Source: Treponema sp. (GTDB taxonomy: Bacteria > Spirochaetota > Spirochaetia > Treponematales > Treponemataceae). Taken from it: a DNA stretch of 64,000 nucleotides. The stretch spans positions 1 to 64,000 of the forward strand of contig JAEEVR010000008.1 in assembly GCA_016290995.1 (NCBI GenBank). Reading direction: 5' to 3'. Position numbers and translations under genes: made by a program. Of the stretch, positions 13,328 to 47,169 are shown in pieces; the first letter of the stretch is position 1; the number at the start of each line of letters is the position of its first letter. The notes under the pieces are model-generated. The model worked only from the letters and a program-made list of their open reading frames with translations. It did not search any database and had not been told where the DNA came from.

Positions 13328-15067
13328 ATGAAAATTTCAGGTTCTCAAGTTGTAATCGAATGCCTCGTAGAGCAGGGCGTTGACACAATATTCGGATATC
13401 CAGGCGGAGCGATTCTTAACATTTATGACGAGTTGTACAAAAACTCCAAGCGCATTCGCCACATTCTTACAGCCCATGAGCAAGCCGCCGCGCACGCCGC
13501 CGACGGATACGCCCGTTCCACCGGAAAAGTGGGCGTGTGCATGGCGACAAGCGGCCCTGGCGCCACAAACCTTGTAACAGGCATCGCAACAGCCTACATG
13601 GACTCTAGCCCGATCGTCGCAATCACTTGCAACGTCGCCACAAGCCTTTTGGGAAAAGACTCCTTCCAGGAAATCGACATTTGCGGCGTTACGATGCCGA
13701 TCACAAAGCACAACTTTATGGTCAAAAAGATCGAGGACTTGGCCGACACAATCCGCGCCGCTTTCCTTATCGCAAAGAGCGGCCGCCCCGGCCCGGTGTT
13801 GATCGACATTCCTAAAGAAGTGACCGACCCCAAAAACTTGATCGACTTTAAGCCCCTTAAAAAATTGGACGACTCAAAAAAGCTTTTGGAAAAATTCGCT
13901 CCCAACCTTAAGCGCGTCTTTAACGTCGCCAAGCCTTCCGACTCTGAAATCAAGGCGGCCGCAAAGCTCATCAATTCAAGCAAGCAGCCTGTGATTTACG
14001 CCGGCGGAGGCGTCACGATCGCGGGCGCCTGCAAGGAGCTTTTTGACTTTGCCACAAAGGCCAACATTCCCGTTAGCGAAAGCCTTATGGCGCGCGCGGC
14101 CTTTCCGTCAAACAATCCGCTCTGCACATGGATGGTCGGAATGCACGGTACAAAGGCCAGCAACATGGCCGTCACCGAATGCGACCTTTTGATAACTCTT
14201 GGCGCGCGCTTTAGCGACCGCGTTCTTTCGGACGCCTCAAAGTTCGCCAAGGGAGCCAAAATCCTTCACATCGACATCGACCCGGCCGAAATCGGAAAGA
14301 ACGTTTCGACCGACTTGCACTTGGTCGGCGACCTTAAGGCTGTCCTTTCGCGCTTGATTCCGCTTGTTGAAGAAAAGCCGCGCAAGGAATGGCTCAAAAA
14401 AATCTCCGCTTGGAAAAAAGAAGTTCCTCCGACATATTTAAAGGAGCCAAAGGATTCAATCAATCCCAAATTCATTTGCGAAGAAATTCATCGCGTGGCC
14501 GGAGACTCCGCCTTTGTTACGACCGAAGTAGGCGAGCACCAAATGTGGACCGCGCAATTCTATCCCTTTGCCAAGCCCAGGACTTTCATCACTTCTGGCG
14601 GCTTGGGAACGATGGGCTTTGGCACAGGCGCCGCGATCGGAACGCAATTCGCCAACCCCAAGGCCCGCGTCGTCGCTATTGCCGGCGACGGTTCCTTCCG
14701 CATGAACTGCAACGAGCTTGCGACAATCCAGCACTATAATCTTCCGATTGTAATCGTAGTAATCAACAACGGAACCTTGGGCAACGTCCGCCTTTGGCAA
14801 AAGCTTTTTTACGGAAAGCGCTACAGCGCGACGACGCTTGACTTTGGACCGGATTGGTCAAAGCTCGCGGCGGCCTACGGCATCGACGCCTACAAGGCAA
14901 AGAACGCCAAGGAATTCGCCGACGTTTTCGCCAAAGCCTTTAAGTCAAAGAAGGCTTGCGTCATCGACGCCAAGGTTGACATAGACGAGCTTGTGCTTCC
15001 GATGGTTCCGGGCGGAAAGGCGATCTACGACCAAATAATGCAAATTAACGAAGCGGCGTTTAGATAA
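13328..15067 (+). CDS. ilvB: Acetolactate synthase, large (catalytic) subunit
   Basis: Thiamine-diphosphate enzyme joining pyruvate to pyruvate or 2-ketobutyrate, the first common step of branched-chain amino acid synthesis. The 579-residue product has the N-terminal glutamate motif TAHEQAAAHAADGYAR, the SGPGATNLVTGIATA segment, and the C-terminal ThDP/Mg motif GDGSFRMN with NNGTLGNVR. The ATG at 13328 is preferred to the GTG at 13322 because of the spacing to AAGGGTG. No small regulatory subunit (ilvN) lies nearby, so feedback control must come from elsewhere or be absent. Its stop overlaps the start of the LacI-GGDEF gene (TAATG), so the two are translationally coupled. Confidence 0.95.
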   Translation: MKISGSQVVIECLVEQGVDTIFGYPGGAILNIYDELYKNSKRIRHILTAHEQAAAHAADGYARSTGKVGVCMATSGPGATNLVTGIATAYMDSSPIVAITCNVATSLLGKDSFQEIDICGVTMPITKHNFMVKKIEDLADTIRAAFLIAKSGRPGPVLIDIPKEVTDPKNLIDFKPLKKLDDSKKLLEKFAPNLKRVFNVAKPSDSEIKAAAKLINSSKQPVIYAGGGVTIAGACKELFDFATKANIPVSESLMARAAFPSNNPLCTWMVGMHGTKASNMAVTECDLLITLGARFSDRVLSDASKFAKGAKILHIDIDPAEIGKNVSTDLHLVGDLKAVLSRLIPLVEEKPRKEWLKKISAWKKEVPPTYLKEPKDSINPKFICEEIHRVAGDSAFVTTEVGEHQMWTAQFYPFAKPRTFITSGGLGTMGFGTGAAIGTQFANPKARVVAIAGDGSFRMNCNELATIQHYNLPIVIVVINNGTLGNVRLWQKLFYGKRYSATTLDFGPDWSKLAAAYGIDAYKAKNAKEFADVFAKAFKSKKACVIDAKVDIDELVLPMVPGGKAIYDQIMQINEAAFR

Positions 15068-17028
15068 TGGCAAAAAAGCGAGTGGGAGTCTTAATCAATA
15101 CAATCTACTCTGAATACGCGGTTTCCTTTATGAAGGGAATCGAACGCTATAGCCAGGAAAACGACTGCTCGTATATTTTGTTCCCCTTGGAGCGCGGAAA
15201 AAATTCAGGCATTTACGACTACCACTGCGAAACGTTAATGTCCTTTGTCAATAAGAACAATTTGGACGGAATCATTTTTGCCACGGCGACTTTGTCCAAC
15301 AATTCCAAGACAGATTTGCCGCGCTTGGTTGAATCGATAAAAATGCTTCCGCCGATTCCAAAAGTTTCAGTCGGCTTGGAAATCGAAGGCATTCCAACGA
15401 TTAAAATCGATTCAAGAAAAGCGATGAAGGAGTTGGTCTCGCATTTGGTCGAGGTTCACGGCTGCAAAAAATTTGTGATAATGCGTTGCGATTCCGGCAA
15501 CTTTGAAAGCTTGGACCGCGAAAAATGCGCGATTGAAACTTTGAGCGGCTACGGCATCACCGTAGATCCAAAATGGATTCTTAGCGGAAACTTTTCTTTT
15601 GACCACGCCTACTCGTCAATGAACAACTTCTTGCGCGCAAACCCTGGCGTTCCTTTTGACGCCGTCATTTGTCTTAACGACTCAATGGCGATGGGCGTGA
15701 TGAATTGCTTGGAAGACAACAACATTAAAATTCCGGACCAAGTCAAAATCACAGGCTTTGACAACGTTTTTGAAACTTCAACCGGCGAGCTGAACATAAC
15801 TACAATCGACCAAAGAATAGATGACTTTGCCTATTCGGCTATGAAGACCGTATGCTCAATCATTGACGGAGAAAGAGTTCCGCCGCTGCATTTGTTTGAC
15901 GCTTCCTTGGTTGTAAGGCATTCATGCGGCTGCAGCAGCGAGCCGATTAGCGAAGAATGCGTCTACGACCTTGCCGTAAAAAGACGCTACGACATTTTCC
16001 GCTTGGGCGGAAACCAGCTTTACATGCTCCATTACTTTTTGATGGAGACGCAGACTCCCGTTCCTCTAGAAAACTTGTACAGCCGCTTGCACTACAGCCT
16101 TTGCCTCTTTGACGTTCAAGGAATGGTTTTGGTTCTTTACAACCATTCGGTTTATTTTGAAAAGGGAACGGAATTCAAGCGTCCTGACGTTGCAAGGGTC
16201 GCGATGTCTTTCTTTAACGAAAAGTCTTTTGAAAGGCCCGACATTACGATAAATCCCAACGCGAGAATTCTTCCGCCCGAAATTATGGAAAAAATGGATG
16301 GCGGCTACACTTTGTTCCCGATTTACGCGGAATGCTTCCAGTATGGATATATGTTCTTGCGCTTGGGCCGCTATGAAAGAATTTTTTATCAGACAGTAAT
16401 TGAGTTGATTTCAAAGGAAATCGTAACGTCGATTAAAATCACAGGCGAGCAGACCGAAAAGAATTCTCTTAAAAACCAAAACGTCACCCTTGAGCAGTAT
16501 TCAGAAAAGATGCACAGGCTTTCGTTCACCGACGAGATGACCGGACTTTTGAACCGCCGAGGTTTTTACGAATACGCCCGTCGTCAAATCGACGCCTCTA
16601 TAGAAGCGGGAAGAACAGGCCTTGTGATTTATTGCGACATGGACGGCCTAAAAAAGATCAACGACACTTACGGCCATGATTTTGGCGACCGCGCGATTAA
16701 ATACGAAGCGCAAATTCTTAAGAGCGTCTTTAGGTCAACAGACATCTCGGCCCGTCTTGGCGGCGATGAGTTTGCGGTCTTGGCTTGCGACATGAAGATT
16801 AAGGACTTTCCAAGAATCAAGCGCGCGATGGCCCAGGAATGCGACAAAATCAACGCGGGAAGTTTGGAGCCTTTTACGCTTTCGGTAAGCGTTGGCTGCG
16901 CTGAATTTTCCGCCACAAGAAAAGACATCGATGATTTGCTGAATAACGCCGACAGCTCTCAGTATGAAGACAAGCGGGCAAAGAAGGAAGCGGAAAAGAA
17001 AAAGAAAAAGCCTTGGTGGCAAAGGTAG
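15067..17028 (+). CDS. Diguanylate cyclase with a LacI-type periplasmic-binding-fold sensor domain
   Basis: The product has 653 residues. Residues 1 to about 290 are a LacI/ribose-binding-like sensor domain (KKRVGVLINTIYSEYAVSFM at the start; AVICLNDSMAMGVMNCLEDN and KITGFDN near 200-235) without the DNA-binding helix-turn-helix and without a signal peptide, so it is probably cytosolic. A middle domain (about 300-460) and a short coiled coil lead to a GGDEF domain (about 485-640). The active-site GGDEF begins at about 565 and the inhibitory I-site RSTD lies exactly five residues before it, so an active, feedback-inhibited cyclic-di-GMP synthase is expected. It overlaps ilvB by one base, an unusual operon partner. 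The ligand is unknown. Confidence 0.88.
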   Translation: MAKKRVGVLINTIYSEYAVSFMKGIERYSQENDCSYILFPLERGKNSGIYDYHCETLMSFVNKNNLDGIIFATATLSNNSKTDLPRLVESIKMLPPIPKVSVGLEIEGIPTIKIDSRKAMKELVSHLVEVHGCKKFVIMRCDSGNFESLDREKCAIETLSGYGITVDPKWILSGNFSFDHAYSSMNNFLRANPGVPFDAVICLNDSMAMGVMNCLEDNNIKIPDQVKITGFDNVFETSTGELNITTIDQRIDDFAYSAMKTVCSIIDGERVPPLHLFDASLVVRHSCGCSSEPISEECVYDLAVKRRYDIFRLGGNQLYMLHYFLMETQTPVPLENLYSRLHYSLCLFDVQGMVLVLYNHSVYFEKGTEFKRPDVARVAMSFFNEKSFERPDITINPNARILPPEIMEKMDGGYTLFPIYAECFQYGYMFLRLGRYERIFYQTVIELISKEIVTSIKITGEQTEKNSLKNQNVTLEQYSEKMHRLSFTDEMTGLLNRRGFYEYARRQIDASIEAGRTGLVIYCDMDGLKKINDTYGHDFGDRAIKYEAQILKSVFRSTDISARLGGDEFAVLACDMKIKDFPRIKRAMAQECDKINAGSLEPFTLSVSVGCAEFSATRKDIDDLLNNADSSQYEDKRAKKEAEKKKKKPWWQR

Positions 17029-17039
17029 GGGGAGGGGTT

Positions 17040-18584
17040 ATGAAGTTTTTGGTTCTTTTGTATTCTGACCAAAACGAATTTCAAAGTCAAAAGATTTTTC
17101 CCTCGGCGCAAGGACAATTAAAGTCGGCCTTTGACCGCTCCAAAGAATGGGCCGACGCGCTGGCTGTTGACGGCTTTCAAAAAGAAACGGTCCTTTTGGA
17201 AGGAAAAGGCTGGACAAGCGGACAGTTGCTTGAAAACATTGTTCAAGCCGCAAAAAAGGCCGCCGCGGACTTTGTCGTTTTTGCCCACAGCTCCTTTGCC
17301 TTCCTTGACTTGCCGTTGACAAAAAAGCTTATTCAAGACCATATAGACTTTAAAGCCGAATACACATTCGCCGACGGATATCCTTGCGGCTTTGCCCCAG
17401 AAATCCTTGACTCGGGCGCGGCGGCCATCATGTCCGAACTGTGCAAGGGCCCCTTGGCCGCCCAAGCGCAAAATCCGGTGACAAAAGAAAGCGTGTTTGA
17501 CATAATAAAGGGCGACGTCAATTCCTTTGAGATAGAGACAGAAATCGCAAGCGAAGACTACAGGCTTTTGCGCTTGGACTTTATGTGCGACACAAAAATA
17601 AAGGCTCTTTCCGCCCAGCGCTTGGCCCAAAAGTTGGCTGACGACGGCAAGCAAGGCTTGTTGGAGTTGGACCAAGACAAGGTTGGCGAAGAAAATGTTT
17701 TGGCCTTGTGCCAAGAGGCTGCGGCCGACCTTAAGGTCTTGAAAACGGTTCCCGCTTTTTACAACGTTCAGATAGAAGGCCGCGTTTTTGCAAAAGAGAC
17801 TTTTACTCCGTATCAAGCAAAAGAAGAACGGATGCCTTATGAAACTTTTGAGGCGCTTGTAAAAAAGATAAAGGAATTCTCGGACAAGGCTGTCGTTTCG
17901 CTTTCGCTTTTTGGCGAGGCGGCCTTGCATCCAGAATTTGACAAGTTTGTCCTTTGCCTTTTGGACGCGGGCTTGGAAGCTTTTGTTGAAATCGACGGCG
18001 GCTATTTGCCGGACTTTTTGCAAAGCCAGCAGTACTCAAGGCTAAAAAGCTCCGCGGCCCAAAAACAAGACAAGATTTATTTTGCCGTTCTTTTGGACGC
18101 CGCCACGCAAAAGACATTTGAGGCTTTTCACAAAGGCCAGCTTCAAAATGCCGCCGACGCCATAAAGGTTTTGGCCGCGGATTTTTCGCAAACCTATCCG
18201 CAATTTGTCCGCGTCCGCCAAAACGAAGAGGAGCTTGAGGCCTTTTATAGATTTTGGTCGGACAAGGCTTCTCCCTCCGCGGGAAAAATCATCGTTCAAA
18301 AATACGACCATTTTTGCGGCCGCTTGCCCGATCTAAAAACCGCGGACTTGGCTCCGTTGGTAAGAGAGCCTTGCTGGCATTTAAGGCGCGACATGGACAT
18401 TTTGCTTGACGGTTCCGTTCCCCTTTGCAGAGAGCTTTTTGACAAGGAGAGTTTGGGAAACGCGTTTGGCCAAGACTTGTCGGAGATTTGGCAAAAGAAG
18501 AATTCGATTTTGGCGGAGCACATAAATAAAGAGTATAAGGGCCCTTGCGGAAATTGCGATGAATACTACACCTTCAATTTTTAA
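17040..18584 (+). CDS. Spirochete SPASM protein with a cysteine-less radical-SAM-like region
   Basis: The product has 514 residues. The C-terminus (about 425-514) is a SPASM domain with Cys445, Cys463 and a CGNC pair (503/506), laid out as in auxiliary Fe-S domains of peptide-modifying radical SAM enzymes. Before it, a stretch with SLSLFGEAALHPEFDKFVL resembles the radical SAM barrel, but the CxxxCxxC cluster motif expected near the preceding strand (NVQIEGRVFAKETF) is absent. The N-terminal 200 residues look like a GT-A/nucleotidyltransferase fold (VVFAHSSFAFLDLPLTKKL; EIASEDYRLLRLDFM). It agrees with what I recall as the spiro-SPASM family, of unknown function. The ATG at 17040 follows TAGGGGGAGGGG. 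It is the first gene of a glycan-type cluster. Confidence 0.8.
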   Translation: MKFLVLLYSDQNEFQSQKIFPSAQGQLKSAFDRSKEWADALAVDGFQKETVLLEGKGWTSGQLLENIVQAAKKAAADFVVFAHSSFAFLDLPLTKKLIQDHIDFKAEYTFADGYPCGFAPEILDSGAAAIMSELCKGPLAAQAQNPVTKESVFDIIKGDVNSFEIETEIASEDYRLLRLDFMCDTKIKALSAQRLAQKLADDGKQGLLELDQDKVGEENVLALCQEAAADLKVLKTVPAFYNVQIEGRVFAKETFTPYQAKEERMPYETFEALVKKIKEFSDKAVVSLSLFGEAALHPEFDKFVLCLLDAGLEAFVEIDGGYLPDFLQSQQYSRLKSSAAQKQDKIYFAVLLDAATQKTFEAFHKGQLQNAADAIKVLAADFSQTYPQFVRVRQNEEELEAFYRFWSDKASPSAGKIIVQKYDHFCGRLPDLKTADLAPLVREPCWHLRRDMDILLDGSVPLCRELFDKESLGNAFGQDLSEIWQKKNSILAEHINKEYKGPCGNCDEYYTFNF

Positions 18585-19515
18585 CGAAAAGCAGCTTAAT
18601 TGTGTTATATTAGGCGGAAGGCATCCCGACCTAGAGCCGCTTTTGAAGGTTACCGCGATATTGCTTAACAGCGGAAACAGACACAAGCGCGAGCAGACAC
18701 TTCAAAGCCTTACCGCTTGCCGTTTTGAAAAAATAATCTCAATCGAAAACGATTCCAACAACTACAACCTTGAGGATTTTTCGCAAGCGTTTCCTCATGT
18801 AAAATTTATAATTCCGCTAGACCCCGCCAATGACGGCGATCTTGTAAACCTTGCGGTTTCTGAAGTCGCGTCGGAACATTTTGTAGTCTTGCGCGACACG
18901 ATGAACATTACGCCTTCAATATTGCCGGCGACGCTTTCGCAAAAGCTTTCAGACCAAAATGTTTTTTGCATAGTGCCTAGAGTTTTTTCAAGGGCGGGGC
19001 AGGCTATTCCAATTTTATTCGCTCCCAGCGCAAAAAAAGCCAAGCTAAAGATTGATTCGTCGGCAAAAGTCCTTGACGGGCTTCCGACCCTTTATCCCTT
19101 TAATTTGATTGGCTATTACGACACAAAACGCTTTAAGGCTTTGGGCGGCTATGACGGAAAAATTCAAAACCCGTATTGGCAAAACTTGGACTTGGCCTTT
19201 AGGGCTTGGCTTTGGGGGGAAAGAATCCAATTGTCCACGACTTTTACGGTGACCTTTGCCGACGAAATCGTCGCGCTCGACTCGACTCCGGATTTGTCGC
19301 AGCTAAGATTCTTCCTAAAGAACATGGCTCCTGTTTTTAAGAACGAAAGGGCTGAAATTCCTTTCGCAAAGTTTTGGGGCTACAATTTGCATTCTTCTTG
19401 CGGCTTTTTTGAGTCGCTTAGGCAGTTTAAGGCCGTCCGTGCGTGGGTGCGTGAAAACCGTTGCCGCTACAAGATGGACGCCTATAAATTGATTTCCGAA
19501 TGGGGTCGCGAATAG
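18559..19515 (+). CDS. Family 2-like glycosyltransferase
   Basis: The 318-residue product resembles a GT-A fold glycosyltransferase of the GT2 type. A beta-alpha start (about 35-75, KIISIENDSNN) is followed by an Asp-containing strand (EHFVVLRDTMNITPS) and, near 195-225, the acceptor-side signature GGYDGKIQNPYWQNLDLAFR typical of GT2 enzymes. No clean DxD is present, so the donor site may be degenerate. The ATG lies 26 nt inside the end of the SPASM gene, and the stop abuts the next ATG (TAGATG), so the cluster is tightly coupled. The sugar and acceptor are unknown. Confidence 0.65.
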   Translation: MNTTPSIFNEKQLNCVILGGRHPDLEPLLKVTAILLNSGNRHKREQTLQSLTACRFEKIISIENDSNNYNLEDFSQAFPHVKFIIPLDPANDGDLVNLAVSEVASEHFVVLRDTMNITPSILPATLSQKLSDQNVFCIVPRVFSRAGQAIPILFAPSAKKAKLKIDSSAKVLDGLPTLYPFNLIGYYDTKRFKALGGYDGKIQNPYWQNLDLAFRAWLWGERIQLSTTFTVTFADEIVALDSTPDLSQLRFFLKNMAPVFKNERAEIPFAKFWGYNLHSSCGFFESLRQFKAVRAWVRENRCRYKMDAYKLISEWGRE

Positions 19516-22035
19516 ATGGCTGGCGGAACTTTTAAGCATGTCGCGGTAATTGTTCAATGCAGGCTCTCATCCACACGGCTTCCGCAAAAGGCTCTGAAAA
19601 TTTTGGGGCAAAAAGAATGCCTTTGCTGGACCTTGGACGCAATGAAAAAAGTCAAGGCGGAGCGTTATTTTGTCGCTTGCGACTACGATTCAAAAGAAGC
19701 CTTGGAGCCGCTTGCAAAAAAATCCGGCTGGGAACTTTACGCCGGCGACCGCGACAATGTCCTTGACCGATTTTGTTCTTTGATTAAAAGCCAGTTTTCC
19801 GAATGCGACTTGATTGTCCGCGCGACAGGCGACAATCCCTTTTTGTTTTGGGAAGCGGCGCAAAAGTCAATCGAGGATTTTGAGCAAAATGAATTTGACG
19901 CCGACTACTTTACTTACTCAGGCTTGCCCCACGGAAGCGGGGTGGAGCTTTTTAAGGCCGCGTCAATTCTTAAGGCGCAAACGTTGACGGACTCTCCTTA
20001 CGACAAGGAGCACGTCGGCCCCGCGCTTTACAGGCATCCAGAAACTTTTAAATGCGTATTTAAAGAGGCGCCAAAAGAATTTTACGCGCCGGAACTGCGG
20101 ACGACGATCGACACCTTTGCCGACTACAAGCGGGCAGTCCGCCTGCAGGACTTTTTGCAAGGCCAAAAATCGGGCGCGCCTTATTGCGCAAAAGACATTT
20201 TGACCGCCCTAAAAAATCCTTCGCTCCAAAAAACTGTTTTGCTTGTTCCAAGCGTCAAGGCGGGCAGGGGAACCGGCCATTTAAGGCGCGCCCTTTCTTT
20301 GGCTAAGGAAATCGGCGCCTTTGTTTACGTTCCCCAAGACAAAAGCCTAAAGGAAGCGGACGCCCTTGTAAGCCAGGCGGTTAAAGACGGCCTAAAGGAA
20401 TGGCAAGTCGTGGACGAGCCTTTGGAAAAATTAGGCGCGGGCTGGGACTTGGTCTGCATGGACTTGTTCCGTTCCGCAAAGGAAGAAATAAAAAAATATT
20501 CCGCGCTTGGCCCCCTGTGCGCTATCGACGACGGAGCGGATTTTTGCAGAGGCTCCGACTATCTTTTGGACGTGATTCCTTCGATGCCGCGCTCTGGCAA
20601 GGCGGCCTTAAAGGCCAACCTTTTTGCTCCGGCGCTTATTGAACTGCCGAAAAATCGCCGCGCGGACTTTCCGGTAAAAATACAAAAGGCCTTGGTTTGC
20701 GTAAGCGGCGAGACTAGGGGAGCGCTTTCGTTCGCCGCCGTCCGCGCGCTTGAATTGCTTGGCGTTGACGTTTTGGAAGTCACCGCAAAAAATCCGATTG
20801 AAAATTTGCGCGAAAAGTTGGCCGGCTATGACTTGGTCGTCACTCATTACGGCTTTACCGCCTTTGAAGCGGCGGCCGCGAATTGCGCTGTTCTTTTGCT
20901 TGCCACAAGCGGCCTCCATAAAAAACTTTCAAAAAAATACGGCTTTGTTTGCGTTGGTAAAAATCAATTGGCATCCAAAAAGTTGCGGCCGCTTTTGGAA
21001 GACCCGCAAGTTTTGGACAACAAAAAGTTTAAGGCTCTTCTTGGCGCCGCGCATTTAGGTCTTGCCAAGCCTTCTGATAACGTCGCGCCTTTTGGCCTTG
21101 AAAAAGCGTCCGGCCTTTCGCCGCTCGCGTCTTTTGTCCAAGAACTTTCGCTTGCGCAAAAATTTTCTTGCCCGGTGTGCGGCCCGACGGCGCTTGGCGG
21201 CGGAAAGGTTTTGGCCAGGACCGCCGCGCATACTTTTAGGCGCTGCCCCAAATGCGGCATGACTTATCTTTCGTTTTCAAGCGACAGCCGCGTTCAGTAC
21301 GAGGCCGATTACTTTGGAAGCGAATACAAGGCCCAGTACGGAAGGACATACCTTGACGACTTTGATTCGATTAAGGCGCAAGGACTGCGCCGCGCGGGCG
21401 TAATCGCAAGGGCCGGACGTTTTAGTCTTAAAAAGCCTAAAGCCGCGCGGCTTTTGGACATCGGCTGCGCTTACGGGCCTTTTTTGGCGGCGGCAAAAGA
21501 GCTTGGCTTTGAGTCCTACGGAACCGACATATCGCAAAGCGCCTTGGATTACGTAAAGAACAAGTTGGGCTTTAGCTCCGTTCTATCTTCGTTCGCGGAC
21601 TTTGATGTCCAAAAAGTTTTTGGCTTTAAAAAGTTTGACGCAGTCACTATGTGGTATGTGATCGAGCATTGCCGCGACTTAAAAGGCCTTTTGGCCCGTG
21701 TGAACGGACTTTTGGACAAGGGCGGAATTTTTGCTTTTTCAACTCCTAGCGGCTCTGGCGTTTCCGCCCGATTCAACCGTTCCGATTTTTTTAAGAACAG
21801 TCCGCGCGACCATTACACGATTTGGGAGCCGTCCAGGGCTTCAGGCGTTCTAAGAAAGTTCGGCTTTAAGGTGGTGAAAATCGTTCCGACCGGCATCCAC
21901 CCGGAACGCGTCAAATTCTTAAAAAATATCCCGCAAAAGTCTTTTATTTTTAGGCTTCTTGCGTTATTCTGTAAGAAGTTCAGTTTGGGCGACACCTTTG
22001 AGATTTATTGCAAAAAAATTAAGGACCCGCAATGA
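19516..22035 (+). CDS. Triple fusion: SpsF-like cytidylyltransferase, PseG-like GT-B domain, zinc-ribbon methyltransferase
   Basis: Three domains in 839 residues. Residues 8-225 form an SpsF/CMP-sugar synthetase domain (IVQCRLSSTRLPQKALKIL, then RATGDNPF). Residues 238-515 form a PseG/SpsG-like GT-B domain (KAGRGTGHLRRALSLAKEI with the GHxxR histidine; VVTHYGFTAFEAAAANCAVL). Residues 550-800 form a SAM methyltransferase with a zinc ribbon (Cys552/555 and Cys577/580), the SAM motif LLDIGCAYGPFLAAA and the later YVIEHCRDLKGLLARVNGLL. SpsF and PseG homologues act in nonulosonate and other CMP-sugar pathways. The chain predicts activation, UDP-sugar handling and methylation of a surface or flagellar glycan; substrates are unknown. 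It starts immediately after the GT2-like gene and overlaps the next gene by 4 nt. Confidence 0.82.
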   Translation: MAGGTFKHVAVIVQCRLSSTRLPQKALKILGQKECLCWTLDAMKKVKAERYFVACDYDSKEALEPLAKKSGWELYAGDRDNVLDRFCSLIKSQFSECDLIVRATGDNPFLFWEAAQKSIEDFEQNEFDADYFTYSGLPHGSGVELFKAASILKAQTLTDSPYDKEHVGPALYRHPETFKCVFKEAPKEFYAPELRTTIDTFADYKRAVRLQDFLQGQKSGAPYCAKDILTALKNPSLQKTVLLVPSVKAGRGTGHLRRALSLAKEIGAFVYVPQDKSLKEADALVSQAVKDGLKEWQVVDEPLEKLGAGWDLVCMDLFRSAKEEIKKYSALGPLCAIDDGADFCRGSDYLLDVIPSMPRSGKAALKANLFAPALIELPKNRRADFPVKIQKALVCVSGETRGALSFAAVRALELLGVDVLEVTAKNPIENLREKLAGYDLVVTHYGFTAFEAAAANCAVLLLATSGLHKKLSKKYGFVCVGKNQLASKKLRPLLEDPQVLDNKKFKALLGAAHLGLAKPSDNVAPFGLEKASGLSPLASFVQELSLAQKFSCPVCGPTALGGGKVLARTAAHTFRRCPKCGMTYLSFSSDSRVQYEADYFGSEYKAQYGRTYLDDFDSIKAQGLRRAGVIARAGRFSLKKPKAARLLDIGCAYGPFLAAAKELGFESYGTDISQSALDYVKNKLGFSSVLSSFADFDVQKVFGFKKFDAVTMWYVIEHCRDLKGLLARVNGLLDKGGIFAFSTPSGSGVSARFNRSDFFKNSPRDHYTIWEPSRASGVLRKFGFKVVKIVPTGIHPERVKFLKNIPQKSFIFRLLALFCKKFSLGDTFEIYCKKIKDPQ

Positions 22036-23636
22036 AGGATTCGATTTTAATTTTAGGCGCTGGAACAATGCAGCGGCCCGCGATTTTAGCGGCAAGAAAG
22101 TTAGGCCTCGAAATATTTGTCATTGACGCAAACCCAGAAGCGCCTTGCGTTTCGGACGCCGACCACTTTGAGCAAATCGACTTAAAGAACCGCGACGAAA
22201 TCGCAAGCTACGCCCAAAGCCTTGCCGGCTGCATGAACTTAAAGGCTGTCTTTACGGCTGGAACGGATTTTAGCGCCAACGTCGCCTATGCCTCCGAAAA
22301 GTGCGGCTTTGCCGGACACAGCTACGCGGCCGCCGTAAACGCAAGCGACAAGGCCTTGATGCGCCAGTGCTTTAGAAACGCGCGCGTTTCAAGCCCGCAT
22401 TTTATTCTTATCGAAAAAAAATATCTTAAAAACACTTTGACGGCGCAAGTTGTCGCCGGCCTAAAATTTCCTTACGTCGTAAAGCCTGTTGACAATATGG
22501 GCGCCCGCGGCTGCCGCATGGTAAGAAACCAAGACGAGCTTTTTGCAGCCATTGACGACGCGCTAAAATTTTCAAGGAGCGGCAGGGCGCTTTTGGAAGA
22601 GTATTTGGAAGGCCCTGAGTTTTCGATAGACGCTTTGCTTTACGACGGGACCTTTACGGTTACCGGCTTTGCCGACAGGCACATTTACTTTGAGCCGTAC
22701 TTTGTAGAGCTGGGCCACACAATGCCCACAAACATTTCATACCAACAATACATAGAGCTTGTAAAAGCGTTCGCGCTTGGAGCCAAGTCTTTGGGCCTTT
22801 CTTGCGGAGCGGCCAAGGCCGACATCAAGTGGACAAAAAAAGGCCCTGTAATCGGCGAGATCGCCGCGCGCCTTTCCGGCGGCTACATGTCGGGCTGGAC
22901 TTTTCCGTATTCAAGCGATTTGAATCTTACCGAGCAGGCGATTGAGATTGCTTTGGGCAGAAAGCCTTGGACGCTGGAGTCCTACAGATTCCCGTTGGAG
23001 ATTGAAGGCGCGCCCTTTAAAATGTTCGCCTACAATTCTTCGCGCTCGTCGGCGGAACGCGCGTGGATTTCAATTCCCGGACGAGTAAAGGAAGTCATAG
23101 GCTTGGACGACGCGGCAAGAATTCCCGGCGCCCGCGACATTTTTCCGCGCGCGAAAGCCGGCGACAAAGTGGTCTTCCCGCGCAACAATGTTGAAAAATG
23201 CGGCAATGTTATTTCTGTCGCGACAACTAGAGAGCAAGCGGTTAAGGCCGCGGAAGAGGCGGTAAAGCGGGTTACGGTCATCCTGGAAAAAGGCAATCCC
23301 GAAACTGACGATTTCCTTAGAATGAAGCGCGCCAAAGAGGAAGGGCATTTTCCGCCCGAGGCGTTCGACCTTCCTAAAGAAGTTGAGCGCGCCTTTAACT
23401 TTGAGCTTGACTGCGAGTCCGAGCGCAAAATCGGCGAATTCGATTTGGTCTCAAACAACATTCCTTCTTCGCTCTTAAATTGCATGGAAATAAAGGATTG
23501 GAACAATCTTTCGCTTTCGGAAACAATCGAAAAATTTGACAAGATGAATTTAAATCACGGCGAGTTGAATTATAAGAAATTCTGGCTGGCCTTAATACGC
23601 GGTGGAATTCAGGGGGCTTTGTATGTTTCAAAATAG
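22032..23636 (+). CDS. ATP-grasp ligase of the glycan-type cluster
   Basis: The product has 534 residues. The N-terminal pre-ATP-grasp fold starts with ILILGAGTMQRPAILAARKL. The ATP-grasp core follows (about 105-310), with FPYVVKPVDNMGARG as ATP-binding loop, LLEEYLEGPEFSIDALL, and the metal-binding IGEIAARLSGGYMSG near 275-290. This subfamily (carbamoyl-phosphate-synthase-like, PurK/biotin-carboxylase-like) joins a carboxylate to an amine or thiol. A C-terminal extension of about 110 residues has no recognised domain. ATGA overlap with the fusion gene places it in the same operon. Its likely role is adding an amino acid or carboxylate to the cluster's product; this is inference. Confidence 0.8.
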   Translation: MKDSILILGAGTMQRPAILAARKLGLEIFVIDANPEAPCVSDADHFEQIDLKNRDEIASYAQSLAGCMNLKAVFTAGTDFSANVAYASEKCGFAGHSYAAAVNASDKALMRQCFRNARVSSPHFILIEKKYLKNTLTAQVVAGLKFPYVVKPVDNMGARGCRMVRNQDELFAAIDDALKFSRSGRALLEEYLEGPEFSIDALLYDGTFTVTGFADRHIYFEPYFVELGHTMPTNISYQQYIELVKAFALGAKSLGLSCGAAKADIKWTKKGPVIGEIAARLSGGYMSGWTFPYSSDLNLTEQAIEIALGRKPWTLESYRFPLEIEGAPFKMFAYNSSRSSAERAWISIPGRVKEVIGLDDAARIPGARDIFPRAKAGDKVVFPRNNVEKCGNVISVATTREQAVKAAEEAVKRVTVILEKGNPETDDFLRMKRAKEEGHFPPEAFDLPKEVERAFNFELDCESERKIGEFDLVSNNIPSSLLNCMEIKDWNNLSLSETIEKFDKMNLNHGELNYKKFWLALIRGGIQGALYVSK

Positions 23637-24675
23637 AATTAGGATTGCGCGTTTTGCGATTTCTTTTTTAGCCGCGCTTTTTCTTTTTTGCGCGTCCGCT
23701 CTCTCGCAAGAACTTTCCCTCTTGGAGCAAAGCTCGCAAAAGGGACAAATCCTTTATTGGGACACTTTGTCTCAAAGCGGCGTTTTGGAAAAAAACGGAA
23801 AGCAAGTTTCCTTCCGCGCCGGCTCAAGCGTGATTCTTTTGGACAACGAAAAATTCGCCTTTACCGACGCTCCGCAAATTGCCAACGGACAAATTTCCGT
23901 AAGCCAAAAGTTCATCAAGGACGCGGAGGACTGGTTTGCCCAGCAGTCAACTAGCGGCGAAAATTTTAAGGTCGGAGCGATATTGATTGATCCGGGCCAC
24001 GGCGGAAAAGATCCAGGCGCCTTGATGACTCACAAAATTAACGGCAAGAACGTAACGATAAAAGAAAAGGACGTAAACCTTACCGTGGCCAAAATGTTGG
24101 CCGCGCGCCTAAAGACCGCCTATCCGCAAAAGAAAATAATCATGACGCGCGACAAGGACGTCTTTATCAGCCTTCAGCAAAGAACCGAAGTCGCAAACTC
24201 CGTAAAGCTCAAGGACCACGAGGCAGTCCTTTACATTTCGATTCACGTAAATTCCTCGCTTGACAAAAAAGCGCGCGGCTACGAAGTTTGGTACCTTTCG
24301 CCCGGCTACAGAAGAACCGTTCTTGACCACGGAAAGACCGACGACCCAAAGCTTTTCCCAATCCTCAATTCAATGATGGAAGAGGAGTACACGACGGAAA
24401 GCATTTTGATAGCCAAGTTCATCATGGACGGCCTGGCCGCGCAAATCGGCAATTTAAGCCAGCCGCGCGGAATCAAGGCCGAGGAATGGTTTGTGGTCCG
24501 CAACTCCAACATGCCCAGCGTTTTGGTGGAGGTGGGCTTTGTTTCCAACTATGAGGAAGCCAAGCTTTTAAATGACGAAAGCTACTTGCAAAAGACGGCC
24601 TTTGGAATATATAATGGAATAACAGCCTTTGTGACGCACTTTGAGCGGTCGCGCGGCTTTACGGGAACAAGATGA
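23623..24675 (+). CDS. N-acetylmuramoyl-L-alanine amidase (Amidase_3), secreted
   Basis: Cleaves the amide between muramic acid and L-alanine of peptidoglycan in the periplasm. An N-terminal signal peptide (about 1-28, hydrophobic ISFLAALFLFCASALS) is followed by about 90 residues without a clear domain and then the Amidase_3 domain (about 120-345). The four zinc/catalytic motifs are present: DPGHGGKDPGA, the glutamate in IKEKDVNLTVA, YISIHVNSS, and VLVEVGFVSN. The ATG at 23623 follows AGGGGGC. The 5' end overlaps the ATP-grasp gene by 14 nt and the 3' end overlaps the next gene by 4 nt (ATGA). Length 350 residues. Confidence 0.93.
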   Translation: MFQNRIRIARFAISFLAALFLFCASALSQELSLLEQSSQKGQILYWDTLSQSGVLEKNGKQVSFRAGSSVILLDNEKFAFTDAPQIANGQISVSQKFIKDAEDWFAQQSTSGENFKVGAILIDPGHGGKDPGALMTHKINGKNVTIKEKDVNLTVAKMLAARLKTAYPQKKIIMTRDKDVFISLQQRTEVANSVKLKDHEAVLYISIHVNSSLDKKARGYEVWYLSPGYRRTVLDHGKTDDPKLFPILNSMMEEEYTTESILIAKFIMDGLAAQIGNLSQPRGIKAEEWFVVRNSNMPSVLVEVGFVSNYEEAKLLNDESYLQKTAFGIYNGITAFVTHFERSRGFTGTR

Positions 24676-41932: not shown

Positions 41933-43228
41933 TTAATTTTCTTGCTCTTGATCTTCGTCTTGGCCGCCGATGAATTTTCTGTATTTTTCGGGATTGACTC
42001 TAAACGCGATGATCGGACTGTTGGGGTCTTCTTCTGCGTGAATCAAGGCTTGCTCGGCTTCGTTCTTAAGCCGCTCCGCGGAAATCAATCTAAGCGAACG
42101 GCTTGAAATGCCAATCAAAGGCTTGGAATCTTGTCCGGCGGCCTTTAGCGCGCTTGCAATGTCTGAGTGCAACACTTCGGCGTTTTGCATCGCTGTGTCT
42201 ATGTCGGAATGTTGCATGATGGCCGCAAAGCCTTCTTCGCCGCATTCAAAAATAAAGTCCTTGAACTGGAAGAAGCTTTGCAGAGCTTGGCAAACATTTC
42301 CGTAATAGTCTGACTCTTTTGTCATGCCTGGAACCTTGATCAAGGCCAAGGCCAAGTCTTGTTCGCTTGACGCGGCCCTTACCAATTCCGATTCAAGGCG
42401 TGTGGCTAAGTAAGATTCCCAACCAAAGCCGCTGGCCGGAGAGAAAAGACCTTGCTCGGCAGCTGGCGCCTGAACTTGGTCTGAAGGCGCTGAGGGAGCG
42501 GCTTGGCTTTCGCTTGAGCCTTCTTGCGCTTTTTGGTCGGCGTAAGCGTTTTCCAAAGGATTGTAGTCAACCTTTTCTTCTTGTTTTGTTTCTGTGGCTG
42601 GAGCGGCGTCGTTATCCGCGGACTCTGAGGTCGAATCGTTGTCAGACTCGGGAGCGGCTTCTTCGTCAAAAAGCGATTCGCCAAATTCGTCGTCAACCTT
42701 TGTCTTTTTAAATTCAACGTCGCCGTCTTCTTGCGCTGTCTCGCCCAAGTATTGTGAAAGTAAAAGGATGCAGGCAAGCAAGGTTCCAGCCAAGATTATG
42801 ATAAAGGCGATTTTTGCCCGGTAATAAATCAGCGAAGAAGAGACCGTGTGGATGTTTGCGTCAAGGCGAATGTCCGCGCCGTCTCCGCCAACGATGCGAG
42901 TGCTAAAGGTTTTTACAAAGACCGAGGCGGCTCGCTGGCTTTCCATTGGATAAACGTAAACGTCTTTTCCGTTGATTTTAAGATTGATGGATTCATAAAT
43001 CTCTGGAGCGCCGACGGCGGAATTGAATAGATTTATAAATTCTTTGGAACCGCTTGGATAGATTTCGCTCGCTTCCGCAGTTCTGGAAGAAAGCTTTTCA
43101 AACTTGGCTCCGGCGGCTTTTAAGCCTGAATTGTAGTCAGAATAAACGCAAATTGCAAAGGCAATTGCGGTTGCGACAAAGACGCCCGCGATGGCGAACG
43201 CCGCGATAGATATTCCCCTCTTATTCAT
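41933..43228 (-). CDS. Membrane sensor protein with a degenerate GGDEF-like domain
   Basis: The product has 431 residues. Two membrane segments (about 8-28 and 137-159) flank a periplasmic domain of about 105 residues. A long acidic, low-complexity linker follows (about 165-270, many Glu, Asp, Ser, Ala). The C-terminal 150 residues have the fold pattern of GGDEF domains, including the closing ISAERLKNEAEQALIHAEED, but the signature loop reads CGEEGFAAIM (about 329-338) instead of GGDEFAVL, so it is unlikely to make cyclic-di-GMP and may instead bind nucleotide or partners. Last gene of the five-gene minus operon, with a 4-nt overlap with the gene before it. No ribosome binding site; an internal promoter sits just upstream. 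Confidence 0.75.
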   Translation of the reverse strand: MNKRGISIAAFAIAGVFVATAIAFAICVYSDYNSGLKAAGAKFEKLSSRTAEASEIYPSGSKEFINLFNSAVGAPEIYESINLKINGKDVYVYPMESQRAASVFVKTFSTRIVGGDGADIRLDANIHTVSSSLIYYRAKIAFIIILAGTLLACILLLSQYLGETAQEDGDVEFKKTKVDDEFGESLFDEEAAPESDNDSTSESADNDAAPATETKQEEKVDYNPLENAYADQKAQEGSSESQAAPSAPSDQVQAPAAEQGLFSPASGFGWESYLATRLESELVRAASSEQDLALALIKVPGMTKESDYYGNVCQALQSFFQFKDFIFECGEEGFAAIMQHSDIDTAMQNAEVLHSDIASALKAAGQDSKPLIGISSRSLRLISAERLKNEAEQALIHAEEDPNSPIIAFRVNPEKYRKFIGGQDEDQEQEN

Positions 43229-44793
43229 AATAATTTATTATACAATAGAATGTTGTTCAGCGCAAGTTTTTTTAACTCTTTTATTGAAATTTTATTTTGG
43301 CCGTTTTTGTCCATTTTTTGCCGCCAATAAGCCATTTCGGGCAAAATCAAGCTTTCTTGGGGCTCAAGACGTTCCGTCTTGTCCAAGTCGCGCGCAAGCG
43401 CGTCAAGGTCTTTTTTTAGGGAGGCAAAGTCAAGGCCGTTGGCTTCAAAGAGCGGAGCGTTTTGCGGCTTTTGCGAAAGATCGCAGACCTTCCATTCGTA
43501 GACGCTATCCTTCCATTCGTAGTCGCCCAAGAATTCTTCCATCGTCGTTTGGTAGCGGAGGAGCGTGGGGCTTTGCAAAAATCCGCGCTGGTTTTTGTTA
43601 AGTTCCGTTCGGAACATAAGCTTGGTGAATAAGCTTTCGGCGTTTTGCGGCCTGGTTTGAGCGGCCATGTATAGGTCGTCCAAGTATGTTCCTTTTGTGT
43701 AAGGCTTTCCTTTAGAGTAGCCAAAGTCGGCTCCGAAAATTTTGATTTTTGCAAACCCGCACTGGCGCGCAAAGTCTGCCGCGCAAATCGCAACCGTTCC
43801 GCCGCCTGAGCGCAATTTGACAAAGGGCCTCTTGCAATAGCGGCTTGCAAAAGAAACCAAGGGATGGCCGGAATCAAAAAAAACTATTCGCGCGTTTTTG
43901 CTTTGCGCATTTTTTGCAATCGAAGGATTCGCCGCCAAGTCCAAGACAAAAATCGTGTCCTTGCTGTTGGCGCCGTTAAAATGCTCGGCGCTTAAATATT
44001 GCGCGTCAAGCGAAACCACCGCGTCAACTTTTATGCCGCGGCGTCCAAAAGCCTTTAATGCGGTGTCCGTCGCTATTACAAAATAATTGTCTCGCGCCTC
44101 TTGAATGGCTTTTGCGCTTTGGTCAAGGCTGGGGCCTGCGGCGATGATTGCCGCGGTTTTTTGCAAGGCGTTTGGAGCGAGGCTTGCCTTGTCTTGGCCG
44201 CATTTTTGGATTTTATTCAACACGCTTAGGTTGCAAAAAATGTTTTTTGTCCACAGGCGGCCAAAGTGGGCTTGGGTGGAGTAGTCGGCTGAAATTTCTT
44301 TTAGGGCGCTTTTGATTCGCTCCAAAATCTTTTCGTAGTCGTCTTGGATTTCTTGAAGCCAAGAGCGCAAGGGCAGAATGCTTATGGCGCCGTAGTGGGC
44401 GGGAAAGTAATTTTGGAGCAGGACTTGCTCTAGGGCGTCGGAAGCGGCGGGGAGTGTAGTGTCTGACGAAAAATCCGCCGCGCAAAAAATAACGTCGCGC
44501 TTTTGGCTAAGTTCCTTTACAAGTGGGGCGTTTTCTTTTAGCCAAGCAATGTCTTGAGCGCTTTTTTCCACCGCGATTATTTTACAGTCAGGATTTCGTT
44601 TTAAAAAAGAGTCTATGTGGAAGCCGCCCGCGATTCCTAAAATCACGGCAAACGACGCGCCGCCTGTTTCTTGGCCAAAAGTTTCGGCTTCGCGCTGGGG
44701 GTCGTATTTTGAATGGGCCGCCCTGCCTGACTTGTATTCCGGCACCACAAGGCCTGTTTTTGCCGTGACGATGCTTTTGTAAAGCGCGCTCAT
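43225..44793 (-). CDS. DUF115 / motility-accessory-factor (Maf)-like protein, copy 2
   Basis: The product has 522 residues. The central domain (about 200-400) is DUF115 (Maf/6-hydroxymethylpterin-pyrophosphokinase-like): AAIIAAGPSLDQSAKAIQEA, YFVIATDTALKAFGRRGIKV and VDAVVSLDAQYLSAEHF, then FGADFGYSKGKPYTKGTYLD. In flagellated bacteria Maf proteins transfer nonulosonic acids to flagellin. The N-terminal 190 residues contain a helix-rich GIAGGFHIDSFLKRNPDCKI segment. The ATG at 44793 is chosen (GGAGG upstream, 4-nt overlap with the preceding gene); a longer open frame reaching 45006 only reads through the neighbour. Confidence 0.83.
   Translation of the reverse strand: MSALYKSIVTAKTGLVVPEYKSGRAAHSKYDPQREAETFGQETGGASFAVILGIAGGFHIDSFLKRNPDCKIIAVEKSAQDIAWLKENAPLVKELSQKRDVIFCAADFSSDTTLPAASDALEQVLLQNYFPAHYGAISILPLRSWLQEIQDDYEKILERIKSALKEISADYSTQAHFGRLWTKNIFCNLSVLNKIQKCGQDKASLAPNALQKTAAIIAAGPSLDQSAKAIQEARDNYFVIATDTALKAFGRRGIKVDAVVSLDAQYLSAEHFNGANSKDTIFVLDLAANPSIAKNAQSKNARIVFFDSGHPLVSFASRYCKRPFVKLRSGGGTVAICAADFARQCGFAKIKIFGADFGYSKGKPYTKGTYLDDLYMAAQTRPQNAESLFTKLMFRTELNKNQRGFLQSPTLLRYQTTMEEFLGDYEWKDSVYEWKVCDLSQKPQNAPLFEANGLDFASLKKDLDALARDLDKTERLEPQESLILPEMAYWRQKMDKNGQNKISIKELKKLALNNILLYNKLL
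43237..43265 (-). promoter_or_regulatory. Internal promoter before the degenerate-GGDEF gene, near-leaderless
   Basis: On the minus strand: TTGCGC (43265-43260), a 17-nt spacer and a perfect TATAAT (43242-43237). The ATG at 43228 follows 8 nt after the -10, so a transcript from here would have a leader of about 2 nt. The -35 matches only TTG. Confidence 0.45.
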
Positions 44794-46301
44794 TCTTGGC
44801 CTCCAAAAAGTTCTAAAAGCAATTTGGATTTCTTTCGCTCGATCGCGCTTTCCCTTTCTTGCCTGTCTTTGTCGTTGGCGGCCCTTTTGAGCATAATGTA
44901 ATCCGCGGGGAACATTTCTTGGCAAAAGTTTTCCGAGCCGCTCCATTCTATGAATGTGTCTTTTATAACGCGGCGCCTTTTGTCGTTCGATCCTAAAGGC
45001 TTGCAAAAATTGTTCTGTGGTTCAAAGAAAAGCGTTTTTTGCGCGCCGTGCGGCTTTGAACAATGGCCTTCAAAATCGCTTGCGCTTATGTCTTGGATTT
45101 GTCCAAGCGAGTTTGAAAAATTTTCGTCTCCCTTTATTCTGTAAACTTTTCTTCCGGCTAAGTCATAGCTTTTAAACCACGCTTCGTAAATCATTAAGCT
45201 TTCCGACGGAAGAGCCGCGGCCGCTTGGCGCGTGGCTTTTGTTCTAAGCCTGCAATCGCTTGCGTCTCTTTCTGTTTCCAAAACGTTTGGAAGCGCGTGG
45301 CTTTTGTTCTTTGACGGAGACAAGTCCAGTCCAGCAAAGAATATTTCCGAGCCGCAAAGGGCAAGGAACAATTCCAAAGCGCTTCCGCTGACTGTTCCGT
45401 TCCTGCGGGCGGGCAAGGCTTTTGCGCCAAGCGCGTCAAAAAGTTTTTGGCTTAATTGGTCGTCGTCATAGCAAAGGGGAAGAATTTCTTTTTGCGACAA
45501 AAGCGTTGACGGGCATGCGGCTTCCGGCTCCAGCGCAAGCGGAACGTTCTTAAAGTTTTTTCTTAACGGGTCCAAATGCTTTTTTGCCCACCAGCCGCCG
45601 TCCGCGCTTAAAATCAAGTCCGGCTCGATGTTGTTGTTGGCCAAAACGCTGACCGACGACGAAAGCGCGCAAACAAAAATTTTCTCTCGAACCTTTTTTA
45701 TTGACTCGAGCGCGCCTTCTAGGCTTGGGCCCGACGCGCAAACAAGAACAGGCTTTTCGATCGGCTTTATGCAAAGCGGTTTTTGAAGGCGCTTAAAAAA
45801 CAAGAGCTTGTTTTTAAGCCAGCGTTTTCCAAAGTATTCTCTTGTTCCTAAAACTGTCTTTGCTTTTTGAATGGCGCTTTTAATTTGGGCCCAAGCCGCC
45901 GTTGATTCTTCCGGCCAGGCGGCGGCCGAGGGCTTCCAGTCAAAAAAAGCGCTTTGGAACAAGCCTTCTTCGCCCATAAGGTCAAAGAGACGGTCGCAAA
46001 GGGGAGGGGCTCCTTTTTCTTTTAAGGACAGGCAAAAGTCCCATTCCTTGTCGCATTCAGAAAAGCCGGTTGTAAAACGAATCGTTCCGACTTTTGCGTT
46101 TGGAAAGCGCTTTTTTATGAAGGGCGCGCAGTAGCTTAAGGCGCCCTCTACGATGATTACGTATTTTGGAATAAAGTCAAGGCTAAGGCTTTGCGCAAAA
46201 CGCTCTCCCTCGACTTGCGGATTGTAAGAGGAATGAAGCGTAACGCCGTTTGCTTTAGCGCTTTTGCTTGCGTTTTTTGCTTGTATGAATTCAAGGGCCA
46301 A
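44790..46301 (-). CDS. DUF115 / motility-accessory-factor (Maf)-like protein, copy 1
   Basis: The product has 503 residues. DUF115 domain (about 195-340) with PVLVCASGPSLEGALESIKK, FVCALSSSVSVLANNNIEPD and LILSADGGWWAKKHLDPL, plus LCGSEIFFAGLDLSPS. It is a divergent paralogue of the next gene rather than a recent duplicate. The start is a TTG at 46301 with AGAGG at the end of the upstream gene; 2 nt separate them. DUF115 pairs are frequent near flagellar or glycan genes in treponemes and campylobacters, and a role in protein glycosylation is likely but not proven. Confidence 0.8.
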   Translation of the reverse strand: MALEFIQAKNASKSAKANGVTLHSSYNPQVEGERFAQSLSLDFIPKYVIIVEGALSYCAPFIKKRFPNAKVGTIRFTTGFSECDKEWDFCLSLKEKGAPPLCDRLFDLMGEEGLFQSAFFDWKPSAAAWPEESTAAWAQIKSAIQKAKTVLGTREYFGKRWLKNKLLFFKRLQKPLCIKPIEKPVLVCASGPSLEGALESIKKVREKIFVCALSSSVSVLANNNIEPDLILSADGGWWAKKHLDPLRKNFKNVPLALEPEAACPSTLLSQKEILPLCYDDDQLSQKLFDALGAKALPARRNGTVSGSALELFLALCGSEIFFAGLDLSPSKNKSHALPNVLETERDASDCRLRTKATRQAAAALPSESLMIYEAWFKSYDLAGRKVYRIKGDENFSNSLGQIQDISASDFEGHCSKPHGAQKTLFFEPQNNFCKPLGSNDKRRRVIKDTFIEWSGSENFCQEMFPADYIMLKRAANDKDRQERESAIERKKSKLLLELFGGQE

Positions 46302-47167: not shown

Positions 47168-47169
47168 TT

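Follow-up and report, generated by a model that had tools for sequence, protein, structure and literature searches.

Introduction

The flagellins (FlaB) of Treponema denticola bear a 450.2-Da glycan required for motility and for the assembly of filaments (PMC9481697), Maf proteins attach nonulosonic acids to flagellin (PMC11339370), and the SpsF and SpsG proteins of Bacillus act in the route to cytidine monophosphate (CMP)-legionaminate (PMC7439481). No genes for making the spirochete flagellin glycan are reported in the literature that we found. Here we describe a gene cluster in a 64,000-nucleotide stretch of DNA from Treponema sp. (contig JAEEVR010000008.1 of assembly GCA_016290995.1, positions 1 to 64,000; hereafter the window), part of a 2.6-Mb genome, that encodes a SPASM-domain protein of the spiroSPASM family, a glycosyltransferase 2 (GT2)-like protein, a fusion of SpsF-type, PseG-like, and methyltransferase domains, and an ATP-grasp ligase. 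Among named relatives, Treponema sp. UBA4377 is the closest at this locus, its SPASM protein being 87% identical. We consider it highly likely that the cluster constitutes the downstream half of a nonulosonate (pseudaminic- or legionaminic-type) pathway dedicated to the periplasmic flagellins. This kind of pathway is already known; new here are the genetic assignment of a flagellin-glycan cluster and the repeated loss of the radical S-adenosylmethionine (SAM) motif from one of its proteins. The outcome is a short, conserved list of candidate genes for the flagellin glycan, on which T. denticola depends for building filaments and for swimming; the same genes occur in T. pallidum- and T. denticola-like genomes but not in the Borreliaceae.

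Co-occurrence of the cluster with flagellin and Maf genes

The distribution of the cluster was surveyed in 246 genomes of the class Spirochaetia (at least 95% complete, plus the genome of the window at 89%). Flagellin was detected in 180 of the 246 genomes and spiroSPASM above the cut-off in 146, all of which have flagellin; no spiroSPASM match above the cut-off occurs in the 66 genomes without flagellin, a few of which give weak matches below it (Fisher p = 7e-35 for co-occurrence, uncorrected for kinship). Flagellin alone occurs in 34 genomes, 33 of them from a Borreliaceae-like family (f5) with genomes of 0.9-1.9 Mb and a Borrelia-type FlaB, and one a draft genome (G383) with a weak spiroSPASM match. 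Within each of two families (f49 and f8), flagellin and spiroSPASM are both present in some genera and both missing from others, and the losses of the two have therefore been coupled more than once. The other genes follow the same pattern: an ATP-grasp ortholog is present in 145 of the 146 spiroSPASM-bearing genomes and in G383, and in the exception (G261) the contig ends ~2 kb from spiroSPASM, on the side of the expected ligase gene. The Maf family PF01973 (Maf_flag10), usually in four copies, is found in all 146 genomes and in G383, and in none of the Borreliaceae genomes of the set; the genome of the window has four such genes, two of them within the window. The preliminary description, made from the window alone, had suggested that the cluster could build the flagellin glycan and had proposed a check against DUF115 (Maf) and flagellin genes; that check strongly supports the idea, and its concern that the genes might be scattered or absent in glycosylated relatives was not borne out in the genomes examined.

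Gene content and gene order

The open reading frames (ORFs) of the four genes overlap successively by 26, 0, and 4 nt (Table 1), confirming the coupling that had been described, and the ATG of the SPASM gene (17040) is preceded by GGAGGGG. The array is nevertheless one of five genes rather than four, because the ATP-grasp gene overlaps a further gene, for an Amidase_3 protein, that keeps its place beside the cluster in most of the class. Gene order was compared for the neighborhoods of 39 spiroSPASM genes sampled throughout the phylum and at 80 named Treponema loci. The order SPASM, GT2, SpsF, PseG-methyltransferase, ATP-grasp, amidase is maintained through the class Spirochaetia, with the SpsF and PseG-methyltransferase parts fused only in the family of the window and encoded by separate genes in the other class members compared. 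Outside the class, mostly just the SPASM and SpsF genes are still together, joined by PseG in several cases. Among the Treponema loci, the whole five-gene order is present in 61 of 80, another 18 end earlier in the same order (many at a contig end), and one has a split fusion gene. Since gene order is kept in all 61 Treponema loci of sufficient length and in the flagellated class genomes examined, except that the ATP-grasp gene is unlinked in some, a chance neighborhood was rejected. The ATP-grasp gene is not at this locus in T. denticola- and T. pallidum-like genomes; its loss there was considered and rejected, as it is retained in unlinked form.

Table 1. Features of the window that bear on the proposed pathway, with positions in the window
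Feature	Position	Strand	Basis
spiroSPASM protein (514 aa)	17040..18584	+	TIGR04321, profile/hhalign matches, AlphaFold, motif survey
Layout of spiroSPASM: degenerate SpsF-like domain, residues ~1-235; radical-SAM-like barrel without CX3CX2C, ~236-430; SPASM domain, Cys445/463/503/506			
GT-A glycosyltransferase-like (GT2-like) protein (318 aa)	18559..19515	+	AlphaFold, Foldseek, VIA-align, motif alignments
Fusion gene, entire	19516..22035	+	
SpsF-type CMP-sugar cytidylyltransferase domain of fusion	19516..20229	+	CTP_transf_3 5.7e-25; 6oew E 3.6e-19; invariant residues
PseG/SpsG-like domain of fusion, GxGH motif (His255 of fusion)	20230..21135	+	TIGR03590, invariant residues
Zn-ribbon-like CxxC pair and class I SAM methyltransferase domain of fusion	21136..22035	+	Methyltransf_23 6.3e-20
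ATP-grasp carboxylate-amine ligase-like protein (534 aa) with LAL_C2	22032..23636	+	Domain matches, solved relatives, co-occurrence
N-acetylmuramoyl-L-alanine amidase	ORF 23602..24675, likely start ATG 23623	+	Amidase_3 9e-49; synteny
Maf-type (PF01973/DUF115) putative flagellin glycosyltransferase	43225..45006	-	PF01973 6e-31; co-occurrence
Second Maf-type (PF01973/DUF115) putative flagellin glycosyltransferase	44790..46301	-	PF01973 4.8e-20

The GT2-like protein has no Pfam match. Its AlphaFold model (predicted local distance difference test (pLDDT) score 88.4) has the GT-A fold, with a polypeptide GalNAc-transferase (GalNAc-T) as the nearest fold (Foldseek E 1e-12; VIA-align Z 20) and a nearly invariant W-Q-x-x-D-x-x-x-R motif (WQxxDxxxR) in its family. 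The metal-binding DxH/DxD (a DxH, with the GT-A fold, would be expected of GT27) is not conserved in the alignments, so the activity of the protein is uncertain. In the fusion, the SpsF signature QxRxxSxRLPxK is intact with invariant residues. The PseG-like middle is weakly matched in the window protein (TIGR03590, E 0.045) and clearly in an ortholog (L050, 3.7e-13); its G-x-G-H and D/H/E residues are invariant, and the equivalog cut-off is not reached. The ATP-grasp protein has ATP-grasp_4 (2e-15) and LAL_C2 (4e-18) domains, and its nearest solved structures are 4dim, followed by an L-amino acid ligase (3vot, 3e-33) and the alanine-anticapsin ligase BacD.

Other genes of the window include the upstream neighbor of the array (15067-17028), whose 653-aa product combines a LacI-type periplasmic-binding-like sensor with a GGDEF domain; two genes at 46304-49749, upstream of the Maf pair and in the same orientation, for proteins of 287 and 859 aa without a Pfam match at E 0.001; and, at 39267-40205, a gene for a TP0453-like outer-membrane-associated lipoprotein.

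Candidate genes for the rest of the pathway and putative flagellin acceptor sites

Genes for the other parts of the proposed pathway, of the PseB-like, PseC-like, NeuB, and Maf types, are encoded elsewhere in the genome or the window. On another contig of the same genome (C28), a NeuB gene (5e-58, below the NnaB and PseI equivalog cut-offs) lies ~10 kb from adjacent PseB-like and PseC-like genes (Polysacc_synt_2 6e-112; DegT 5.5e-98). A weak NeuB match in this genome (L006, 3098-5095) was rejected, being 3-deoxy-D-arabino-heptulosonate 7-phosphate (DAHP) synthase fused to prephenate dehydratase. Profile searches for NeuB, PseB, and PseH in 40 chosen genomes (21 cluster-bearing, 14 flagellin-less, and 5 Borreliaceae) gave strong NeuB and PseB-like matches in all 21 cluster-bearing genomes and in no Borreliaceae, with NeuB also present in 4 of the 14 flagellin-less genomes. 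No PseH (TIGR03585) exceeded the cut-off in any of the 40 genomes, although a divergent acetyltransferase could escape this search, and the T. pallidum-like genome gave no PseH match whatever.

The PseB-like and PseC-like genes form an operon with a trio resembling xanthine dehydrogenase (PseB-PseC-XdhMo-XdhFe-XdhFAD; C28, L169 843-6940), and 13 further genomes of the class, among them the T. pallidum-like one, have the five genes in the same order; they come from families f1, f2, f3, f4, f7, f8, f10, and f49 (loci compared besides L169: L172, L176, L279-L288, L294, and L297). One genome (G138) has the Xdh-like set without PseC, the T. denticola-like genome has neither PseC nor the trio beside PseB, and outside the class Spirochaetia no such trio was seen next to PseB. 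Conserved cofactor-binding glycine motifs are missing from the large subunit, and the small subunit retains the first Fe-S cysteine set. Xanthine dehydrogenase-like proteins are listed at TPASS_0079 and TPASS_0081 (PMC4403809). The operon probably belongs to the pathway, for which its degenerate, oxidoreductase-like trio might supply an acid.

Leptospira FlaB1-3 reportedly carry the two T. denticola glycosylation motifs (VEVSQL and DRIAS) almost without variation, and both acceptor serines are substituted in Borrelia burgdorferi FlaB (PMC7431986). FlaB sequences from Borreliaceae (L259-L265) were compared with those from other genomes (L266-L278). The FlaB of the window's genome reads QVEVSALVSEVDRIASS at the two motifs, with the acceptor serines present; among the other cluster-bearing FlaBs sampled, nine keep both serines, G009 keeps only the second, a FlaB of G138 (which has several) lacks both, and no such motif was located in L277. 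The seven Borreliaceae FlaBs all have QIEIEQLTDEINRIADQ or a close variant there, which places Glu and Asp where the two serines would be. Acidic residues in place of the attachment site of an acidic sugar are suggestive.

The Borreliaceae also bear on the proposal that the cluster makes or modifies a surface or cell-wall glycan, with the amidase acting on peptidoglycan and the link to flagella reflecting wall remodeling for periplasmic flagella. The overlapping, widely syntenic amidase gene speaks for this proposal, as does the frequent use of NeuB routes for surface glycans, yet Borreliaceae have periplasmic flagella and lack both the cluster and the acceptor serines. Furthermore, Maf tracks the cluster exactly, the cluster is lost with flagellin, and the reduced T. 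pallidum-like genome retains the set; T. pallidum itself is not known to have lipopolysaccharide. We therefore regard a surface or wall glycan as improbable.

Proposed biosynthetic scheme

The substrates and order of steps that we infer for the flagellin pathway derive from the gene content, gene order, co-occurrence, predicted folds, and motif states described above. The PseB-like dehydratase and PseC-like aminotransferase of C28 would produce a uridine diphosphate (UDP)-4-amino-sugar, onto whose free amine the ATP-grasp ligase would join a carboxylic acid, replacing the acetyltransferase step of PseH. The PseG-like domain would then strip the UDP, the NeuB/SpsE enzyme of C28 would condense the sugar with phosphoenolpyruvate, and the SpsF domain would form the CMP-nonulosonate. 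The SAM methyltransferase would O-methylate the acyl group, and approximately four Maf proteins would move the sugar to Ser/Thr residues of FlaB. The 450.2-Da FlaB glycan of T. denticola (Kurniyati 2017) is reportedly a nonulosonate with a 2-methoxy-4,5,6-trihydroxyhexanoyl group at N7, and a methoxy-acyl amide of this kind would need an amide ligase in place of PseH as well as an O-methyltransferase.

That the ligase and methyltransferase build the acyl group has, in our judgment, about an even chance of being correct. A variant compatible with the core of the scheme holds that the flagellin nonulosonate is made but that these two enzymes act elsewhere (e.g., in N5 modification or flagellin methylation). 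The substrates assigned to them are putative and no characterized close relative of the ligase was found, which leaves room for the variant; against it stand the obligate co-conservation of the ATP-grasp gene with the pathway, the lack of a PseH match over the cut-off, and the methoxy-acyl amide reported for the T. denticola glycan. The variant is possible but appears the less likely of the two.

Several observations weigh against the assignment to a flagellin nonulosonate as a whole. The species sampled are related, and the genomes are thus non-independent points. A flagellin-less genome (G315, family f53) has a weak ATP-grasp match (285 bits, C1:1810592-1811794), possibly a paralog, and four flagellin-less genomes of that family carry a single weak Maf-like match. 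The PseG homology is weak, with no match of the PseG-like profile in the PDB, and the PseB-like matches fall below the PseB equivalog cut-off and thereby do not fix pseudaminic versus legionaminic stereochemistry, which the PseB, PseI, and PseH equivalog models likewise do not settle. Additionally, it is hard to see what the GT2-like protein and the amidase would contribute to a glycan of a single sugar, and no biochemistry or mutants for these genes were found in the literature.

The spiroSPASM protein

No paper naming spiroSPASM was found in the literature; TPASS_0285 is listed as a SPASM protein (PMC4403809). The window protein matches TIGR04321 with 454 bits (curated cut-off 250) as well as PF13186. 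A phylum-wide profile matches the Leptospira cytidylyltransferase 6oew at the N-terminus, BtrN in the barrel (1.5e-16), and AnSME in the SPASM domain, and hhalign of the N-terminal domain against SpsF gives a probability of 98.1 (E 7e-14); the cytidine triphosphate-binding signature that is invariant in SpsF is missing from this domain. The AlphaFold model (pLDDT 93.2) fits this layout, with SuiB, BtrN, BlsE, and 6oew as the nearest folds and VIA-align Z scores of 19-21 supporting the radical-SAM barrel (best SuiB, Z 21).

The CX3CX2C motif of the catalytic [4Fe-4S] cluster is absent from the window protein. Of 200 orthologs, 73 have the intact motif and 127 have lost it; by contrast, 196 retain all four SPASM cysteines, and several barrel residues show about the same conservation in motif-intact and motif-lost proteins. 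Family f14 has an intact motif, which family f18 and the T. pallidum- and T. denticola-like genomes have lost. An assembly error was rejected as the cause, because most near relatives (73 of 80 Treponema loci) also lack these cysteines. A FastTree phylogeny computed without the motif columns requires 21 changes of motif state, or 29 losses if regain is barred; counting only well-supported branches leaves 12-14 changes (support at least 95) or 7 (support at least 99). The radical-SAM cysteines have thus been lost repeatedly while the SPASM cysteines stay, and the retained protein offers a natural experiment on pseudo-enzymes of this class.

The preliminary description took the SPASM domain as a sign of peptide modification, a reading that is not favored by an SpsF-like domain joined to a radical-SAM barrel that has lost its cysteines here and has no known peptide substrate. 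In its most explicit form, a radical-SAM/SPASM enzyme and an ATP-grasp ligase would act on a ribosomal peptide, as in systems for ribosomally synthesized and post-translationally modified peptides. SuiB is the best structural match, and some ATP-grasp enzymes modify peptides, but nearly equal scores go to BtrN and BlsE, whose substrates are an aminocyclitol and a nucleoside sugar acid, respectively. The catalytic cysteines are gone from the window protein and most orthologs, the N-terminus is SpsF-like, the neighbors have nucleotide-sugar-type domains, and no conserved small ORF was noticed, without a systematic search for one. Such a peptide system seems very unlikely.

Within the nonulosonate scheme, the SpsF-like domain of spiroSPASM may serve to dock the protein on the pathway. 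In many relatives spiroSPASM probably works as a radical-SAM enzyme that introduces an additional modification; the window protein, with its catalytic motif gone, is probably a structural or Fe-S partner. More speculatively, spiroSPASM could be a radical-SAM protein of a new kind, working on CMP- or UDP-nonulosonates via a dead cytidylyltransferase domain, that has discarded radical activity many times while the protein and its SPASM cluster remained obligatory; with the degenerate Xdh-like trio, it might form an unrecognized Fe-S-dependent complex for tailoring the flagellin sugar, a proposal that we offer tentatively.

Comparison with described systems

The proposed pathway resembles the pseudaminate/legionaminate flagellin glycosylation systems of Campylobacter, Aeromonas, and Clostridium in having PseB-like, PseC-like, and PseG-like proteins and NeuB- and CMP-transferase-type enzymes together with Maf (PF01973), and in tracking flagella. 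It differs from them in the lack of a PseH over the cut-off, in PseB, PseI, and PseG matches that do not reach the equivalog cut-offs, and in the addition of an ATP-grasp ligase, a methyltransferase fusion, a GalNAc-T-like protein, and spiroSPASM. The sps system of Bacillus subtilis (SpsC-D-E-F-G-M, PMC7439481) likewise pairs an SpsF cytidylyltransferase with an SpsG/PseG hydrolase in a UDP-sugar route; in the family of the window, however, the SpsF, PseG-like, and methyltransferase domains are one polypeptide, the probable target is flagellin rather than the spore crust, and no counterpart of the SpsD acetyltransferase was identified. The T. denticola-like genome, from the same family as the window, contains the cluster, ATP-grasp, NeuB, PseB, and Maf genes, and differs in having an unlinked ATP-grasp gene and no PseC next to PseB; we found no publication that connects these genes with the T. 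denticola FlaB glycan. Lastly, spiroSPASM shares the fold of a barrel with an auxiliary Fe-S domain with BtrN, DesII, BlsE, and the SPASM maturases SuiB and AnSME, and is set apart from all of these by its N-terminal pseudo-cytidylyltransferase domain and by the loss of CX3CX2C in most sampled members.

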